Source of the DNA: a bacterium
GTDB lineage: Bacteria; Patescibacteriota; Minisyncoccia; Phycocordibacterales; 2-02-FULL-43-11
Reading direction: 5' to 3'
DNA: 10,065 bases
NCBI GenBank assembly: GCA_021814895.1
Contig: JAKAHN010000019.1
Location: forward strand, 1-10,065
Both the position numbers and the translations under genes were made by a program. Under the pieces are notes generated by a model. It was not told the DNA's origin and made no database searches. It saw only the letters and a list, made by a program, of their open reading frames with translations. Below, one piece after another: positions 3,445-9,884 of the stretch. The number at the start of each line of letters is the position of its first letter. The first letter of the stretch is position 1.

Positions 3445-3879
3445 TCAGAATTCAATATTTAACAATTTTTTGATTTTGTCGGCGCAATCGGCATTTTGGA
3501 CTCCGGTATTGCCGACACCGTACACCCCGTTTGATAATCTCACCAATTCTGTATGAGCTTTTAATATATTATCTCTTTTTAATGTTATATTAAGATTGGC
3601 AAAAAAATTATAGCCCGGTATTAAATTCGTTTTTACTAATAGAAGAGAAGATTGCTGTCTAAATTTTTTACTAGCCTCATCGTATGAATTTTTTAAGCCA
3701 TCCATATGGGGATTAGCATAAATATTGGCATAAAAAATTAAGGAATCAAAAATCTCGCCTATTATCTGTTTTTGATCGAAGATTGGTTTTATAAAGAATT
3801 TTTCAATTATTTGGCCAAGAACATAGATAATAACACCACCGATGATTGTTAAGCTAGAAGTTAATAATACTTTTGACAT
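3445..3879 (-). CDS. Membrane-anchored hypothetical protein (144 aa)
   Basis: One N-terminal hydrophobic helix (about residues 7-24, LTSSLTIIGGVIIYVLGQ) is followed by FFIKPIFDQKQIIGEIFDSLIFYANIY and a mostly helical soluble part ending KIKKLLNIEF. With no positively charged N-terminus and lysines after the helix, the soluble part probably faces the cytoplasm. The pattern of one helix, then a K-P..QK..IGEI...L.FYAN segment, then LL.KT.LIPGY and L.RLSNGVYG, resembles a widespread but uncharacterised family of small anchored proteins. I cannot name it. The ATG at 3879 begins two bases after the TAG of the nuclease-like gene, so the two are translationally coupled, and the frameshifted membrane gene follows 12 bases downstream. 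It may act as a membrane tether or sensor for the nuclease-like protein; that is inference from gene order only. Confidence 0.8.
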   Translation of the reverse strand: MSKVLLTSSLTIIGGVIIYVLGQIIEKFFIKPIFDQKQIIGEIFDSLIFYANIYANPHMDGLKNSYDEASKKFRQQSSLLLVKTNLIPGYNFFANLNITLKRDNILKAHTELVRLSNGVYGVGNTGVQNADCADKIKKLLNIEF

Positions 3880-3881
3880 AT

Positions 3882-4319
3882 CTATTTATTAGTTTTTTTT
3901 AAATCTTTCCAGGAATATTGGATAGCTGTGCCATTTTTACCGACCGCAAAGACGTAAAGTAGCAATTTTTTAGCTACTTGCCAGGGTAATCGACGCAAAG
4001 CAATTTTTGCACTAGATTCCGGCAAGGCAAGACCGTAATAATACCTCGTTGATTTATCCGTTTTCATTCGAGTTATAATTTGACCTAGCGAATAGACAAA
4101 AGCAACTTCATCGGCCTGTTTAATTTTACCCTCGCCTTTGGCCTCTATAAAAAAATAACGAGAATATTTTTGGTGTTTTGCTTTAATATCTACTCCTTTT
4201 TCTCTTAATCCGCCAAATTGGAAATAGCCCCATCCATTGGCAGACAGCCATTTTATAACGGAATTTTTAACAAAATCTTCCGATAAAATTTTATCTATTT
4301 TTGATATTTTTTTAATCAT
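3882..4319 (-). CDS. PD-(D/E)XK nuclease-like protein (145 aa)
   Basis: The short alpha/beta protein carries the restriction-endonuclease-like core in the right order. E14 lies in the first helix (LSEDFVKNSVIKWLSANGW), D44 in GVDIKAK, E59-A60-K61 in YFFIEAKGEG, and Q80 in SLGQIITRM. The E...GxD...ExK...Q arrangement is that of Mrr/Holliday-resolvase-like PD-(D/E)XK nucleases that need magnesium to cut DNA. No DNA-recognition domain is fused, so target choice or a partner is unknown. I take the ATG at 4319 as the start. An in-frame TTG at 4370 would add 17 residues, but that TTG is the first half of the promoter's -35 box, and the predicted transcript starts near 4335, downstream of it. First gene of a three-gene operon divergent from the type III R-M genes. 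A helper, backup nuclease or independent defence effector are all possible. Confidence 0.75.
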   Translation of the reverse strand: MIKKISKIDKILSEDFVKNSVIKWLSANGWGYFQFGGLREKGVDIKAKHQKYSRYFFIEAKGEGKIKQADEVAFVYSLGQIITRMKTDKSTRYYYGLALPESSAKIALRRLPWQVAKKLLLYVFAVGKNGTAIQYSWKDLKKTNK

Positions 4320-4341
4320 ATTTTTATCTAAAACTACTTTA

Positions 4342-4370
4342 TTTATAACACAAAATAGGCCTAAGGACAA
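4342..4370 (-). promoter_or_regulatory. Promoter of the leftward nuclease/membrane operon
   Basis: The minus strand has TTGTCC (4370-4365, four of six matches to TTGACA), a 17-base spacer and TATAAA (4347-4342). TGT just upstream of the hexamer adds an extended -10. Transcription should begin near 4335, leaving a leader of about 16 bases without a Shine-Dalgarno sequence before the ATG at 4319. Confidence 0.7.
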
Positions 4371-4450: not shown

Positions 4451-6217
4451 ATGTCGAAAAAGACTAATTACGACGGGTGGTCAAATGAGGAATTGATAAA
4501 GGAAATTATTAAAATTAAAAGCACGACATACGGGCTTGTTTGGCATAGGGATTTACCGGAAGAGAAGATAGATATTTTAGTTAATCCAGACGCACGTACT
4601 CCAAATGAAATGTTTCCTAATGAAATGGCGGGCCGACCGTTTCCTGTTTTAAAAGAAGTTAAGGGTAAAGCGATTGAATCGGATAAGACTAAACTCGTAA
4701 ATCTTTTGATTGAGGGAGATAATTATCACTCCCTTGCTGTTTTAAATTTTACGCATCGGGAAGCAATCGATTTAATATATATTGATCCACCATATAACAC
4801 TGGAAATAATGATTTTATTTATAATGATAAATTTGTTGATAAAGAGGACAGTTTCCGGCATAGTAAATGGCTTTCGTTTATGGAGAAGCGTTTAAAGCTC
4901 GCAAAATTCCTTTTAAAATCCACGGGGGTTATTTTTATAAGTATTGATGATAATGAGTATGCTCCGTTAAAATTGCTTTGTGATGAACATATTTTTGGTG
5001 AAGGTAATTTTATAGCTTGTTTACCAACAATAATGAATTTAAAGGGTAATCAAGATCAGTTTGGATTTGCGGGGACACACGAATATACGCTTGTTTATGC
5101 AAAAGATATTAAACAAGCAAAAATGAATGAATTTGTTGTCATGGACGAAGACCTTGAAGAGTGGGAGGAGGATGAGATTGGTTATTTTAAGAAAGGCGCA
5201 AATTTGAAGTCAACAGGGGTTAATGCGCCACGCCAAAAGAGACCAAATCTTTTTTTTCCAGTTTTCTTTGCAAAAAATGGGGATTTTTATGTAACGGAAG
5301 ATAATTTACCTAAGAATTCCAGTGATATAAAAATTTTACCGATTACTGACGGCAAAGAAATGTCGTGGCGATGGGGCAAAGAAAAAATGAAAAATGAAAA
5401 ATACAATCTTATTATTGAGAAAAATGGAGAGAGTATAACAATTTATAAAAAACAAAGGCCATCACTTGGAGATTTGCCGTCCAAAAAGCCTAAAACTATT
5501 TTTTATAAGCCGGAATACAGTAGTGGAAATGGTACGTCGCAATTAAAAGATATATTTGGAGATAAAGTTTTTAATAATCCCAAGCCTTTAGATTTAATCA
5601 AGGATTTTATAAGCCTGGCTAGCCCTAAAGACGGCACCATACTTGATTTTATGGCCGGCTCCGGTACAACGGGCCACGCAGTTTTAGAATTAAATAATAA
5701 GGATGGCGGTAAAAGAAAATTTATTCTTTGTACAAATAATGGGGATGAAAAATCTAAACATAAAATAGCGTCAGATATTTGCTACCCAAGAATAAAGAGA
5801 GTTATCGGCGGATATAAAAACCAAAAGAATGAAAAAATCAACGGGTTAGGAGGAAATTTGAAATATTATATCACTGATTTCGTAGAAGCAGAGCCAACGG
5901 ACAAAAATAAGAGAAAACTTGTTAAAGAGTCTACTGATATGCTTTGTATTTTAGAGAATGCTTTCGAACTTATAGAAGAAACTCCTGAATATAAAATTTT
6001 TAAGAATACAGATAAATATGTCGGAGTTATTTTTTATGAGGAATCGATAGATGACTATAAAAAAGCAATTAAAAAAATTGATGGGCATTTTAATACTTAT
6101 GTTTTTTCGATGGGAGACGATCCGCATGCGAAAAAATTTGCTGATATCAAAAATAAAGTAACGCTTTGCGCAATCCCAGAAGTAATATTAAAAGTATATA
6201 GGGAGATTTTTAAGTAA
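4451..6217 (+). CDS. mod: Type III restriction-modification DNA methyltransferase (Mod)
   Basis: This 588-residue protein is an N6-adenine DNA methyltransferase of the beta class. The catalytic motif IV IDPPYNTGN (DPPY at 112-115) comes first and the AdoMet-binding motif I DFMAGSGTTG (399-408) comes late. Between them lie KWLSFMEKRLKLAK, the strand GVIFISIDDNEYAPLKLLCDEIF-like segment (about 158-180, here with H before IF), GTHEYTLVYAKD, and a variable region to about residue 395 that should include target recognition. Mod gives the complex its sequence specificity, methylates one strand of an asymmetric site and is required with Res for cleavage. Length and order match type III Mod proteins. 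The ATG at 4451 is the first in frame after the promoter at 4374-4402. The gene is followed after five bases by the HEPN-motif gene. AT-rich codon use differs from polA, in line with transfer. The recognition site cannot be read from the sequence. Confidence 0.95.
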   Translation: MSKKTNYDGWSNEELIKEIIKIKSTTYGLVWHRDLPEEKIDILVNPDARTPNEMFPNEMAGRPFPVLKEVKGKAIESDKTKLVNLLIEGDNYHSLAVLNFTHREAIDLIYIDPPYNTGNNDFIYNDKFVDKEDSFRHSKWLSFMEKRLKLAKFLLKSTGVIFISIDDNEYAPLKLLCDEHIFGEGNFIACLPTIMNLKGNQDQFGFAGTHEYTLVYAKDIKQAKMNEFVVMDEDLEEWEEDEIGYFKKGANLKSTGVNAPRQKRPNLFFPVFFAKNGDFYVTEDNLPKNSSDIKILPITDGKEMSWRWGKEKMKNEKYNLIIEKNGESITIYKKQRPSLGDLPSKKPKTIFYKPEYSSGNGTSQLKDIFGDKVFNNPKPLDLIKDFISLASPKDGTILDFMAGSGTTGHAVLELNNKDGGKRKFILCTNNGDEKSKHKIASDICYPRIKRVIGGYKNQKNEKINGLGGNLKYYITDFVEAEPTDKNKRKLVKESTDMLCILENAFELIEETPEYKIFKNTDKYVGVIFYEESIDDYKKAIKKIDGHFNTYVFSMGDDPHAKKFADIKNKVTLCAIPEVILKVYREIFK

Positions 6218-6222
6218 CTATT

Positions 6223-6960
6223 ATGATTTTAAATTTAGAACGATATAAAAAAGATATTGAAAAACTCGTGCAAGATGGGGGTAATTTATCGGAACTTTTA
6301 AAAGGCGAGAATGATAATTTATTGAGATTTAGAGAAGAATATGAAATTTGGTATTCGGAGGCATTGTATTTAGTAAAAGTGGTTCTGCCCGACAGATTAG
6401 ATGACTTTAAGAATTATTACGAAAATAAGAAAAATGATGCGTTGAAAAAGGCTATAACTTATACACCGCCAAGAAGTGAAGGGATGATGGTTGAGTTTGA
6501 TTATAAACCCGCGAAACAGATTGATTTTGCAAAATCACTTTTTGTTAACCAGTTAAATATAATTAAATCGTGTCAAAAAAGATTTGAAAGTTCACTTTTT
6601 GATATAAAACAATTAATGCAAGCCGATTTATTTGATTCTGAACTGGAAACAGCAAAAGAGTTAAATAAAAAAGGATTTAATCGTGGGGCCGGAGCAATCG
6701 CTGGCGTCGTTTTAGAAAAACATTTATCTGAAGTTTGTGATAACCATAATGTCAAAATTTTAAAAAAGAACCCAACAATAAACGACTACAATCAACCCAT
6801 AAAAGATGCTGATATTATTGAAGTTAAAGATTGGCGTTTTATTCAACGATTAGCTGATTTGAGAAATTTATGTGATCACGATAAAAAAATAGAACCAAAA
6901 CAGGAAGACATTGAAGAATTGATTGCCGGAGTCGAAAAAGTATCAAAAACGATATTTTAA
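6223..6960 (+). CDS. HEPN-motif protein inside the R-M operon (245 aa)
   Basis: The protein appears all-helical and has two parts. Residues 1-130 are a charged helical region with no motif I recognise. Residues about 138-245 resemble a HEPN domain: an amphipathic helix GFNRGAGAIAGVVLEKHLSEVC (151-172), then a second helix with LADLRNLCDH, where R214-N215-x3-H219 is the Rx4-6H signature of HEPN RNases. In such proteins the arginine and histidine of two subunits form a metal-independent RNA-cutting site, seen in toxins, RloC/PrrC anticodon nucleases and Cas proteins. It lies five bases after mod and ten before res, so it should be co-expressed with them. That suggests a part in defence, perhaps RNA cleavage when restriction fails, or a structural role in the complex. 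The motif is visible; RNase activity is inferred. Some HEPN-like proteins are inactive, and the N-terminal half remains unexplained. Confidence 0.8.
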   Translation: MILNLERYKKDIEKLVQDGGNLSELLKGENDNLLRFREEYEIWYSEALYLVKVVLPDRLDDFKNYYENKKNDALKKAITYTPPRSEGMMVEFDYKPAKQIDFAKSLFVNQLNIIKSCQKRFESSLFDIKQLMQADLFDSELETAKELNKKGFNRGAGAIAGVVLEKHLSEVCDNHNVKILKKNPTINDYNQPIKDADIIEVKDWRFIQRLADLRNLCDHDKKIEPKQEDIEELIAGVEKVSKTIF

Positions 6961-6970
6961 ATGAAAAATT

Positions 6971-9205
6971 ATGTGGATAGAATTTAAAAATTATCAAGAA
7001 AATGCCGTTGTTGATCTCAAACGTGAGACCAACAGGCTTTTAGATACAGATGGCAACAAGGTATTGATTTTTAAGGCACCGACCGGCTCTGGTAAAACAC
7101 TTATGATGGCAGAATTTTTGAAAAGATTAGTTGATTCTCGCATAGATGGTAAAAAGTTTTCGTTTATTTGGATTGCCGTCAACAAATTACACGACCAAAG
7201 TCGAAATAATCTTAAAAAATATTATGACCAAAATGGGGTAGGAATAAAATGTTCATATTTTGATGATTTGGATGACCGCAGAATTGGCGAGAATGAGATT
7301 CTATTTTTAAATTGGGCAAGTATTAATAAAAAAGATAATTTATACGTACGGGCGAATGAACGAGACAACAACCTTTCAAATATTATTGCCCGCACAAAAG
7401 ACGAGGGCAGAATAACCTTTCTTATTATAGATGAGAGCCATCATACAGCTAATAGCGAGAAGTCAAAAGAATTAATACAGGATATTGGCCCGAAAATTAC
7501 GATAGAAGTTTCTGCTACTCCGCAACTTAATAATGCTAACAGAATTGTTGAGGTGGAACTTAAAGATGTAAAAGACGAGGAAATGATAAAGAAAGAAATC
7601 ATAATTAATCCCGGATTTGAGAACTATATAATTGATAAGAAAAAGAGCGATCAATCAGCCGATGAACTTGTGTTAGAAAGTGCAATAAAAAAACGGCTTG
7701 AATTACGGAAAAAGCTTGAAGCGGAGAACTCGGATGTAAATCCTTTGTTGTTAATTCAATTGCCAGATGCGATGCAGGGCGTGGCTGATAAAAAGGATGA
7801 GATTATTGCTTTACTTAAGAAATTTGGTTATACGACGGAGAATGGCAGGCTCGCTATTTATCTCTCAGATAAAGATAATAAAATAAATCTGGCCAATATA
7901 GAGAAGAATGAAAATGAAGTTGAGATAATGATATTCAAACAGGCAATATCACTTGGTTGGGATTGTCCTCGAGCGACAATCTTGGTTTTATTTAGGCAAT
8001 GGCGAGAAGAAAATATCACTTTTTCCATCCAAACACTGGGCCGTATTATGCGTATGCCGGAACAAAGGCATTATTCAGATCAAGATTTAAATGTCGGTTA
8101 TGTATTTACTAGTTTACAAGACATAAAAGTTGCAGAAGATTTGTCTCGTGATTATATTACTACTTACACGGGGTATAGAATTAAAAATTATAAAAATCTC
8201 GGTTTAGTTTCTTATCACTCGAAACGTTTTAGAGAAGAAACTCGTCTTTCATCTGATTTTACTCCTCTTTTTATCGAAGCAGGCAAGAAGTTAAAACTTA
8301 AAGAAAAATTTTCATTTAAGCACAGCATATTAAAAACAAGTCTTATTGCTAGCGGTCATATTGCGGATGTCGATAAAGAAATGGCGAATATAGATAAAAA
8401 AGGTACTCTCGATATACCTAAAAATGAAGTTGAATTGCAAAATGCTTTTGATATGTTTGCTCGAAATAATCTTGCCCCATTTGAACCGGAACAACGTTCT
8501 ATCGGTCGCATAAAAAGTTCGATTTATTCATTTTTTGAGGCCTCTCGGAATGAAGATGAATGGCCCAAGATTCAAGCGGCCGTTCTTGCCGAGGAAAACC
8601 GACAAATAATGGTCGATGTTATCAATCTTACAAAAGAAATGTATCAAGAGGAGGTTGGTAAGGGGAAAAATGAATTGGTAAAAAATGAAGAGCCGTGGGA
8701 TATTCCTAAAGTAATAAATTATACATTGTCTTTTGCGAAAAAAGATTATAAAAAATCTGTAATACAACCTTATTACACAAAGAAATCTGGTATAGGGACG
8801 GCTAGTTTATTTGAAGAAGATAGCGATTTAGAAGTCGACTTTATTCAATATTTAGAAAAAGCAAAATCTATTGAGTGGTGGTTTAAGAATGGGACAAAAG
8901 ATGGATCATATTTTGCGGTACCACATACAGAGCATGGAATTGAAAAACCGTTTTATATTGATTTTGTAATAATGCAAAAAGATGGACACGTAGGCTTATT
9001 TGATACAAAAGGCGGGTTAACCGCTGAAACAGCTAAATCACGTGCCGAGGGGCTGGCAAAGTATATTGCCGAACAAAATAAAAAAGGTAAAAAACTTTAC
9101 GGAGGAATTGTATTAAAAGAAAAAAATAGTTGGCGTTATCATAACGGATTAAAATACGAATATAACCCTAACGACCTAAAAGACTGGAAGTTTTTAGAGT
9201 TATAG
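6971..9205 (+). CDS. res: Type III restriction endonuclease/helicase subunit (Res)
   Basis: This 744-residue superfamily 2 helicase-nuclease cuts DNA together with Mod. Motifs in order: an N-terminal Q-tip-like YQENAV; Walker A APTGSGKT (36-43); DESH box D154-H157; motif III SATP (181-184); SLGWDCPRA before motif VI, where QTLGRIMRMP (354-363) supplies the arginine fingers. The C-terminal nuclease has D664 in YIDFVIMQ and D678-T-K680 in GLFDTKGG, the PD-(D/E)XK set typical of type III Res. ATP hydrolysis drives switching and sliding along DNA until two complexes meet. At 744 residues it is shorter than EcoP15I Res (about 970), mainly between helicase and nuclease, but all catalytic motifs are kept, so it looks functional. 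The ATG at 6971 starts ten bases after the HEPN stop; there is no Shine-Dalgarno sequence. An ATG at 6961 is out of frame. Confidence 0.95.
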   Translation: MWIEFKNYQENAVVDLKRETNRLLDTDGNKVLIFKAPTGSGKTLMMAEFLKRLVDSRIDGKKFSFIWIAVNKLHDQSRNNLKKYYDQNGVGIKCSYFDDLDDRRIGENEILFLNWASINKKDNLYVRANERDNNLSNIIARTKDEGRITFLIIDESHHTANSEKSKELIQDIGPKITIEVSATPQLNNANRIVEVELKDVKDEEMIKKEIIINPGFENYIIDKKKSDQSADELVLESAIKKRLELRKKLEAENSDVNPLLLIQLPDAMQGVADKKDEIIALLKKFGYTTENGRLAIYLSDKDNKINLANIEKNENEVEIMIFKQAISLGWDCPRATILVLFRQWREENITFSIQTLGRIMRMPEQRHYSDQDLNVGYVFTSLQDIKVAEDLSRDYITTYTGYRIKNYKNLGLVSYHSKRFREETRLSSDFTPLFIEAGKKLKLKEKFSFKHSILKTSLIASGHIADVDKEMANIDKKGTLDIPKNEVELQNAFDMFARNNLAPFEPEQRSIGRIKSSIYSFFEASRNEDEWPKIQAAVLAEENRQIMVDVINLTKEMYQEEVGKGKNELVKNEEPWDIPKVINYTLSFAKKDYKKSVIQPYYTKKSGIGTASLFEEDSDLEVDFIQYLEKAKSIEWWFKNGTKDGSYFAVPHTEHGIEKPFYIDFVIMQKDGHVGLFDTKGGLTAETAKSRAEGLAKYIAEQNKKGKKLYGGIVLKEKNSWRYHNGLKYEYNPNDLKDWKFLEL

Positions 9206-9209
9206 CTTT

Positions 9210-9884
9210 ATGTCCTCTAATCTTTCTCAAAATCTCTACATAGTTTACGCCACTAATGAAAATTTTAGAGCAGACGTCCAATACATTAGAGAAAATATTC
9301 CGATAATTAAATTGTATGTCGACGGAGAGGGAATGGAAGATTACTCCTGTTTGTCTGAATCTATAAAAACGACAATCAGAATAAAAAATTTAGACGATAT
9401 TCATCAGTTTACGAAAAATTATGATAAGGCCATTTCTGATTTACGGTTAAAATATCATTTATCGCCGGCTTATCAAACTCCTTTAAAAGATTTTATCGAA
9501 CAGCGAGATATTATTAGTTATTCCGGTTTGCCGGAAGAACTTTGGCCGTTTAATATTGCTAATCCGACCAATCCCAAAGAAAAATTTACTGTTATTCGCT
9601 TGAATCCAGAAACGACCATAACTGAACTGCAAAAGAATTGGAATGAAATAAGACAAGCAGTCGTTAGATTGTCCGATTCTAAGCCCTTAAAAGCCTCGCC
9701 ACGGAACAATATCGCTCGAGACCTGGAAATATACGAATTACGCCAGGTAGGCAAGAAAGACAAGGAAATTGCTTCGATTATTAATGAAAAATATCCCGAT
9801 AAAATTCTCGGTTATCAAGACATCGCTAAAATTATTAAAAGGCTTTTGGATTATTCCAAGAAATTGACTGGACAAGCAAAATAA
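9210..9884 (+). CDS. Hypothetical protein with C-terminal helix-turn-helix-like region (224 aa)
   Basis: I do not recognise the family. The N-terminal 150 residues have mixed alpha/beta character with no catalytic motif I can see (YIVYATNENF, IPIIKLYVDG, FTVIRLNPETT). The C-terminal stretch about 168-219 reads as helices: IARDLEIYELRQVG, then KKDKEIASIINEKYP, then YQDIAKIIKRLLDYSKKL. The G-K-x-D-K-E-I-A spacing is that of a helix-turn-helix, so DNA binding is plausible. It begins four bases after the res stop and is followed by a terminator, so it is the last gene of the R-M operon. An operon-end DNA-binding protein could be an autoregulator acting on the inverted repeat at 4343-4401, or an accessory specificity factor. 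Both are inference. Start: the first ATG in frame; no Shine-Dalgarno sequence. Confidence 0.75.
   Translation: MSSNLSQNLYIVYATNENFRADVQYIRENIPIIKLYVDGEGMEDYSCLSESIKTTIRIKNLDDIHQFTKNYDKAISDLRLKYHLSPAYQTPLKDFIEQRDIISYSGLPEELWPFNIANPTNPKEKFTVIRLNPETTITELQKNWNEIRQAVVRLSDSKPLKASPRNNIARDLEIYELRQVGKKDKEIASIINEKYPDKILGYQDIAKIIKRLLDYSKKLTGQAK

Follow-up and report, generated by a model that had tools for sequence, protein, structure and literature searches.

Locus organisation

We analyzed 10,065 nucleotides of contig JAKAHN010000019.1 from a bacterium of the Patescibacteriota (the window), in which a gene with a HEPN ribonuclease (RNase) motif lies between mod and res, the two subunit genes of a type III restriction-modification (R-M) system. 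This position had been read from the sequence alone and was confirmed, as the three genes are co-directional, the mod and res frames are intact and only short gaps separate them. The locus comprises the following features (lengths in amino acids, aa).

4451..6217 (+), mod, type III DNA methyltransferase subunit, 588 aa (PADLOC and Pfam)
6218..6222 (+), gap of 5 bp between the mod stop and the HEPN ATG (read from the sequence)
6223..6960 (+), HEPN-domain gene, 245 aa, ATG start, cargo at the mod-res junction
6961..6970 (+), gap of 10 bp between the HEPN stop and the res ATG (read from the sequence)
6971..9205 (+), res, type III restriction subunit, 744 aa, with a helicase and, by eye, a nuclease-like C-terminus (PADLOC and Pfam)
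9210..9884 (+), gene of a 224-aa protein, 4 bp past res, perhaps in the same operon

Mod matched MTase_III of PADLOC (4.4e-85) and N6_N4_Mtase of Pfam (3.4e-35), and Res matched ResIII of Pfam (1.2e-20) and REase_III of PADLOC (2.3e-19), which together give the methyltransferase and helicase-nuclease pair of a type III system, the nuclease motif being recognised by eye. DPPY and FMAGSG are visible in Mod and APTGSGKT, DESH and IDFVI...DTK in Res, which we take to be functional motifs of the two subunits. Since promoter-like matches between 4200 and 10065 showed no excess over shuffled sequences (24 against 23.7), the operon was deduced from spacing and strand alone, and the HEPN gene would be transcribed together with mod and res. 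Terminator-like matches in the same region numbered 7, compared with 4.0 in shuffles. The guanine-cytosine (GC) content of the HEPN gene (0.308) is barely below that of mod (0.333) and res (0.345), and therefore we do not claim a recent foreign origin.

The HEPN protein

Within the HEPN gene three parts were distinguished; model confidence is given as the predicted local distance difference test (pLDDT).

6232..6597 (+), N-terminal helical part, residues ~4-125 (structure model; residues 85-95 with pLDDT <50)
6598..6957 (+), HEPN domain, residues 126-245
6862..6879 (+), R214-N215-x3-H219, predicted catalytic motif (sequence and alignment)

The HEPN signature R214-N-x3-H219 had been noted in this protein, and it is indeed found at 6862-6879 in the form RNLCDH. 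An Rx4-6H motif with a polar residue after the arginine is described as a HEPN feature (PMC3710099), and the predicted structure of the window protein has the all-helical HEPN fold. R214, N215 and H219 are invariant in an alignment of 27 rows, comprising the window protein and 26 of the 119 other homologues among the matches listed. Among these 120 proteins, 119 carry RNxxxH near the C-terminus, the sole exception (P0066, 216 aa) ending in ...RNLG and thus stopping within the motif. Conservation also extends to a 12-row set with identities as low as 20%, with H219 kept in 12, N215 in 11 and R214 in 10 rows. The HEPN assignment is carried by conservation and fold, not by the odds of meeting the bare motif by chance.

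No family library gave the window protein itself a name. It has a single, unrelated Pfam match (0.027), no match in PADLOC or NCBIfam up to E 1, and one irrelevant phmmer match in the PDB (0.041). A distant homologue in genome G621 clears the Pfam HEPN cut-off (2.1e-07). The window protein has no match to DUF4145 (PF13643), and two homologues fall under the cut-off of 23.1 bits (L077 with 20.5 bits and P0005 with 14.6 bits). The N-terminal ~130 residues had been described as lacking a recognised domain and as a possible sensor of Mod/Res state or invader DNA. The libraries likewise recognised no domain there; the model is helical and its structure matches are unrelated helical bundles only, and a controlling role of this part is conceivable. 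Taken together, the in silico results give good support to the prediction that a HEPN RNase is encoded within an R-M operon. The protein would act as an endoribonuclease, metal-independent if it follows its superfamily, and is probably dimeric.

Survey of mod-res junctions

To place the arrangement among related systems, relatives of the window Res were collected from 22 of 237 genomes of the same class (E <= 1e-20) and 17 of 286 of the same phylum (E <= 1e-40), and relatives of the Res of genome G391 from 3 of 24 genomes of its own family (E <= 1e-60). The genome of the query is included in each count, and the genome sets overlap. They yielded 42 distinct Res loci, window included, of which 38 have a readable junction: the window, 33 loci with direct mod-res contact and four other filled loci, in which a complete Mod was confirmed via tblastn. 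Left out were L013, L028, L029 and L032, whose junction is hidden by a contig end or a partial res; in L013 a helix-turn-helix-like fragment stands ahead of res. Second pieces of a broken res (L033, L105) were counted once with their locus, and L110, L112 and L113 repeat counted loci. Counted as direct were L030 with a broken mod, L027 and L093 with a broken res, and L019, L034 and L100, in which the mod frame extends ~125 residues beyond its matched part and ends at res.

At 33 of the 38 readable junctions mod and res abut or overlap with nothing between them, 28 of them within 15 bp; in the other five, taking the earliest candidate start of res gives an overlap of 27-138 bp. All five of the closest Res relatives of the window (67-71% identical) belong to this group, one of them with a res broken into pieces of 69% and 59% identity. 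A second, divergent mod-res pair in the window's own genome (L085:2331-6874, -) overlaps by 4 bp and has nothing between its genes.

The remaining five junctions are filled, each with a different content, which goes beyond the sequence-only reading. Besides HEPN in the window, G391 (L086:3160-8513, -) carries a cyclase of the cyclic oligonucleotide-based antiphage signaling system (CBASS; PADLOC 5.7e-105) together with a Cap15 effector (Pfam 2.5e-34), with gaps of 1-2 bp. In G028 (L106:4259-9591, -) a 239-aa unknown accompanies a Schlafen AlbA_2 gene (1.4e-11), with gaps of 2-4 bp, and G111 (L107:2-5707, -) has genes for RNase HI (1.9e-12) and DUF3800 (2.3e-14), with a SoFic-type gene before mod. 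G1263 (L114:2491-2871, -) contains a 126-aa unknown with gaps of 4 and 8 bp; by eye, this protein shows cysteine pairs and a membrane-like stretch. As PADLOC names the CBASS pair and none of Schlafen/AlbA, RNase HI, DUF3800 or the unknowns, a defence nature is established for this one cargo; for HEPN it is likely. In three relatives genes with PADLOC matches come after res (QatA-like, Ppl-like and LmuB-like).

In G111 the DUF3800 gene is preceded by a 35-nt duplicate of the res start (86%), a trace of recombination at the junction. At the window HEPN insertion no direct repeat of at least 20 nt pairs the two ends.

A Res tree of 38 rows (four filled, 33 direct and the hidden junction L013), which predates the inclusion of G1263, required two changes of the filled label, compared with a mean of 3.9 in shuffled labels, and 2 of 500 shuffles were as low. 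One change is the window, sister to its five empty relatives (100/100). The other is a clade (98/98) of G391, G111, G028 and L013; no two of its readable junctions share a cargo. G1263, with a fifth kind, fits this clade by identity (Res 66% to that of G391). The filled loci lie in one half of the tree (4 of 17 labelled rows), with none among the 20 labelled rows of the other half. The root is a midpoint for drawing, and the program warned of long branches at deep forks.

Distribution of the HEPN family

Six genomes of the same phylum have a match to the HEPN family, namely the window's own (G000), G086, G098, G324, G481 and G708. A single-sequence search (E <= 1e-3) returned G000, G086 and G098 among 286 genomes, an alignment search (E <= 1e-10) returned G000, G324, G481 and G708 among 383, and a search within one family gave the same last three among 14. 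Among 118 relatives of the window, one of the same genus and most of the same order or beyond, HEPN was found at E <= 1e-10 only in G000 itself.

Four of the six genomes place HEPN inside an R-M operon, which is of type III in the window and of type I in G708, G481 and G324. This repeated placement of the family supports part of the sequence-only reading. In G708, of the same class, the order is hsdR, HEPN, a fused hsdM-hsdS gene and AbiU/AIPR. HEPN is flanked here by gaps of 4 and 2 bp, and its product is 54% identical to that of the window. In G481 and G324 HEPN lies between hsdM with an ATPase gene and hsdS, and hsdR follows downstream; these homologues are distant (23% over the whole protein), and the two placements, being from the same family, may represent one event. 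PADLOC recognised HsdM, HsdS and HsdR of G481 and HsdR of G324, whereas similarity in appearance was the guide for hsdM and hsdS of G324. The following names were likewise given by eye, without family-search support: integrase, terminase, polA, leuC/leuD, RadC and the small nuclease described below. In the G324 operon (L081:4949-10297, +) an AAA_15/AAA_21 ATPase and SoFic are encoded as well, therefore several accessory genes can share one R-M operon.

Elsewhere the gene was seen without such a host. In G086, where a weak TIR-like neighbour occurs (0.0067), and in G098 (4.1-kb contig), tblastn found no R-M homologue at the HEPN locus. Outside the phylum the family was detected in 4 of 201 genomes in the phylum of an Anaerolineales record (E <= 1e-15) and in 1 of 299 in the phylum of a gammaproteobacterial record (E <= 1e-20), again with no R-M homologue found by tblastn at the locus; the latter is cut by a contig end and has the PADLOC candidate defence gene PDC-S73 after HEPN. 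A copy in G642 (L078:5811-8499, +) is flanked by two aconitase-family genes, by eye in a string of leucine/branched-chain biosynthesis genes.

With the alignment query, homologues were also found at 30 viral-contig loci, several of them near-copies, and integrase- or terminase-like neighbours were noted by eye at several of the 25 looked at. Single-sequence scans, which reach close relatives only, gave no HEPN match in viral contigs or in the phage collection, and detected neither Res nor the 224-aa gene in viral contigs. Phage-type DNA methylase genes were seen by eye at L036, L055, L059 and L064, and in L050:2139-3731 and L057:1985-3579 the HEPN homologue adjoins a zinc-ribbon DUF4145-like gene (by eye). 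Plasmid matches numbered 25, including 22 Acinetobacter records and a Serratia record, and some plasmid relatives are annotated as DUF4145 or HEPN. Relatives of Res were likewise listed from plasmids.

As a control, 39 other family loci (the 30 viral ones, L004-L007, L077-L079, L082 and L083) were searched by tblastn with the window proteins and HsdR/M/S of G708 and G481 (E <= 1e-3). All had HEPN and no R-M homologue, in loci of varying length from which distant R-M genes would escape. The family is therefore mobile and occurs alone, yet in the window's phylum it often lies inside R-M operons.

According to the sequence-only reading, linkage of HEPN with mod and res should recur in other genomes. 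None was seen directly; the only hint is equal contig size, in two or three cases. Three HEPN homologues (P0003, P0005, P0086) lie on contigs equal in size to those of homologues of the 224-aa protein (979,672, 74,018 and 5,191). For the first two sizes the HEPN homologues are 87% and 76% and the 224-aa homologues 91% and 90% identical, and the 5,191 match could be a coincidence. The equal sizes hint at inheritance as a unit, and the placement in the window is perhaps not a one-off. Among 108 relatives of the window (E <= 1e-5) the 224-aa gene was found in the window genome and in none of the other 107.

Interpretation

We consider it somewhat probable that the HEPN gene entered the mod-res junction as cargo and, co-expressed with both genes, provides a simple second line behind restriction. 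Mod-Res would cut unmodified invading DNA. If the invader survived or disabled restriction, the HEPN endoribonuclease, probably a dimer with a helical N-terminal part, would be released or activated and would cut RNA, so that growth of the infected cell stops in a PrrC-like manner. That the R-M state itself controls HEPN is a more tentative proposal.

Alternatively, HEPN may be an independent mobile defence or toxin gene which landed here by chance, is expressed through the operon and is functionally unrelated to restriction. This is rather unlikely in our view, even if the viral-contig loci with their integrase- and terminase-like neighbours, the 39 loci with no R-M homologue, the copy between aconitase-family genes and the absence from the nearest Mod-Res relatives would fit it. 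Against it, placement in R-M operons of two types in four of six genomes exceeds what random landing would give, an expectation that was not computed and in which two cases may be one event. Moreover, one Res clade has every readable junction filled, each with a different cargo, which therefore suggests a favoured site. The sequence-only reading also considered HEPN as a third subunit of the Mod-Res complex. Such a subunit would be required for restriction or for controlling it. Tight spacing, common direction and possible co-inheritance with the operon would agree with this, but at most related junctions mod and res adjoin without a third gene, and the family also occurs in their absence; we regard it as improbable. 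A toxin-antitoxin pair of HEPN and the 224-aa protein carried by the R-M operon is very improbable, as the two genes share one string and have homologues on three equal-size contigs but are separated by res, the 224-aa protein has no Pfam match up to 0.05 and a poor model (pLDDT 62.9), and no nucleotidyltransferase, the usual partner of HEPN toxins, was present among the window proteins scanned.

The preferred second-line reading has a tested precedent in PrrC, an anticodon nuclease of the HEPN superfamily encoded within the type Ic EcoprrI locus (PMC3710099, PMC12707154). PrrC is kept inactive by its R-M system (PMC3710099). In both cases a HEPN ribonuclease gene is embedded in an R-M operon, deduced for the window from spacing and strand, and a second line upon restriction inhibition is the known role of PrrC (PMC3710099, PMC12707154) and by analogy the proposed one of the window protein. 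In contrast to PrrC, whose N-terminus is an ABC ATPase and whose host system is of type I, the window protein has 245 aa, a helical N-terminus with no ATPase match in Pfam or PADLOC, and a type III host; furthermore, its position is taken by unrelated genes in sister systems. A survey from 2013 reported several HEPN clades in R-M operons and proposed the same role generally (PMC3710099). R-M with a suicide RNase is already known for type I and predicted for many HEPN clades. One of them, the DUF4145-like clade, is recorded in an operon with R-M (PMC3710099), and the window homologue L077 lies just below the DUF4145 cut-off; the window protein differs by the missing match and an extra N-terminal helical part of ~125 residues. 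TgvAB is likewise a second defence system within an R-M operon, but its host is of type I and, in the account consulted, it acts by modification-dependent DNA restriction with no HEPN (PMC11411939). In some type III systems mod and res are likewise accompanied by an accessory gene, which encodes a helicase-like ATPase. In contrast to the window HEPN, this gene is located 5' of mod and not at the junction, and its close homologues accompany hundreds of systems (PMC8259958).

The exchangeable cargo at the type III junction is a more interesting result than the HEPN gene itself. Genes between type III mod and res were not reported among the matches listed in the open-access literature, subscription papers lying outside this search. 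One could speculate, and we hold this to be doubtful, that in a clade of patescibacterial type III systems the mod-res junction is an effector slot into which HEPN RNase, CBASS cyclase-Cap15, Schlafen/AlbA, RNase HI-DUF3800 or small unknowns are swapped, that Mod-Res state silences or triggers each effector, and that type III restriction serves as a general sensor platform. If true, interchangeable cargo, a whole CBASS pair among it, would mean that very small bacteria use their restriction operons as a chassis for layered immunity. The slot also raises a testable question, namely whether Mod-Res state controls whichever effector occupies it.

Neighbouring sequence

The GC content of the window is 29-37% from ~3 kb to its end, and the adjoining part (~52%) holds the start of a polA-like gene (by eye). 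Upstream of mod are two minus-strand genes, 3882-4370 (-) and 3445-3879 (-). The former resembles by eye a small PD-(D/E)xK-type nuclease and has a 36% relative at L016:4622-5050, which adjoins another type III locus.
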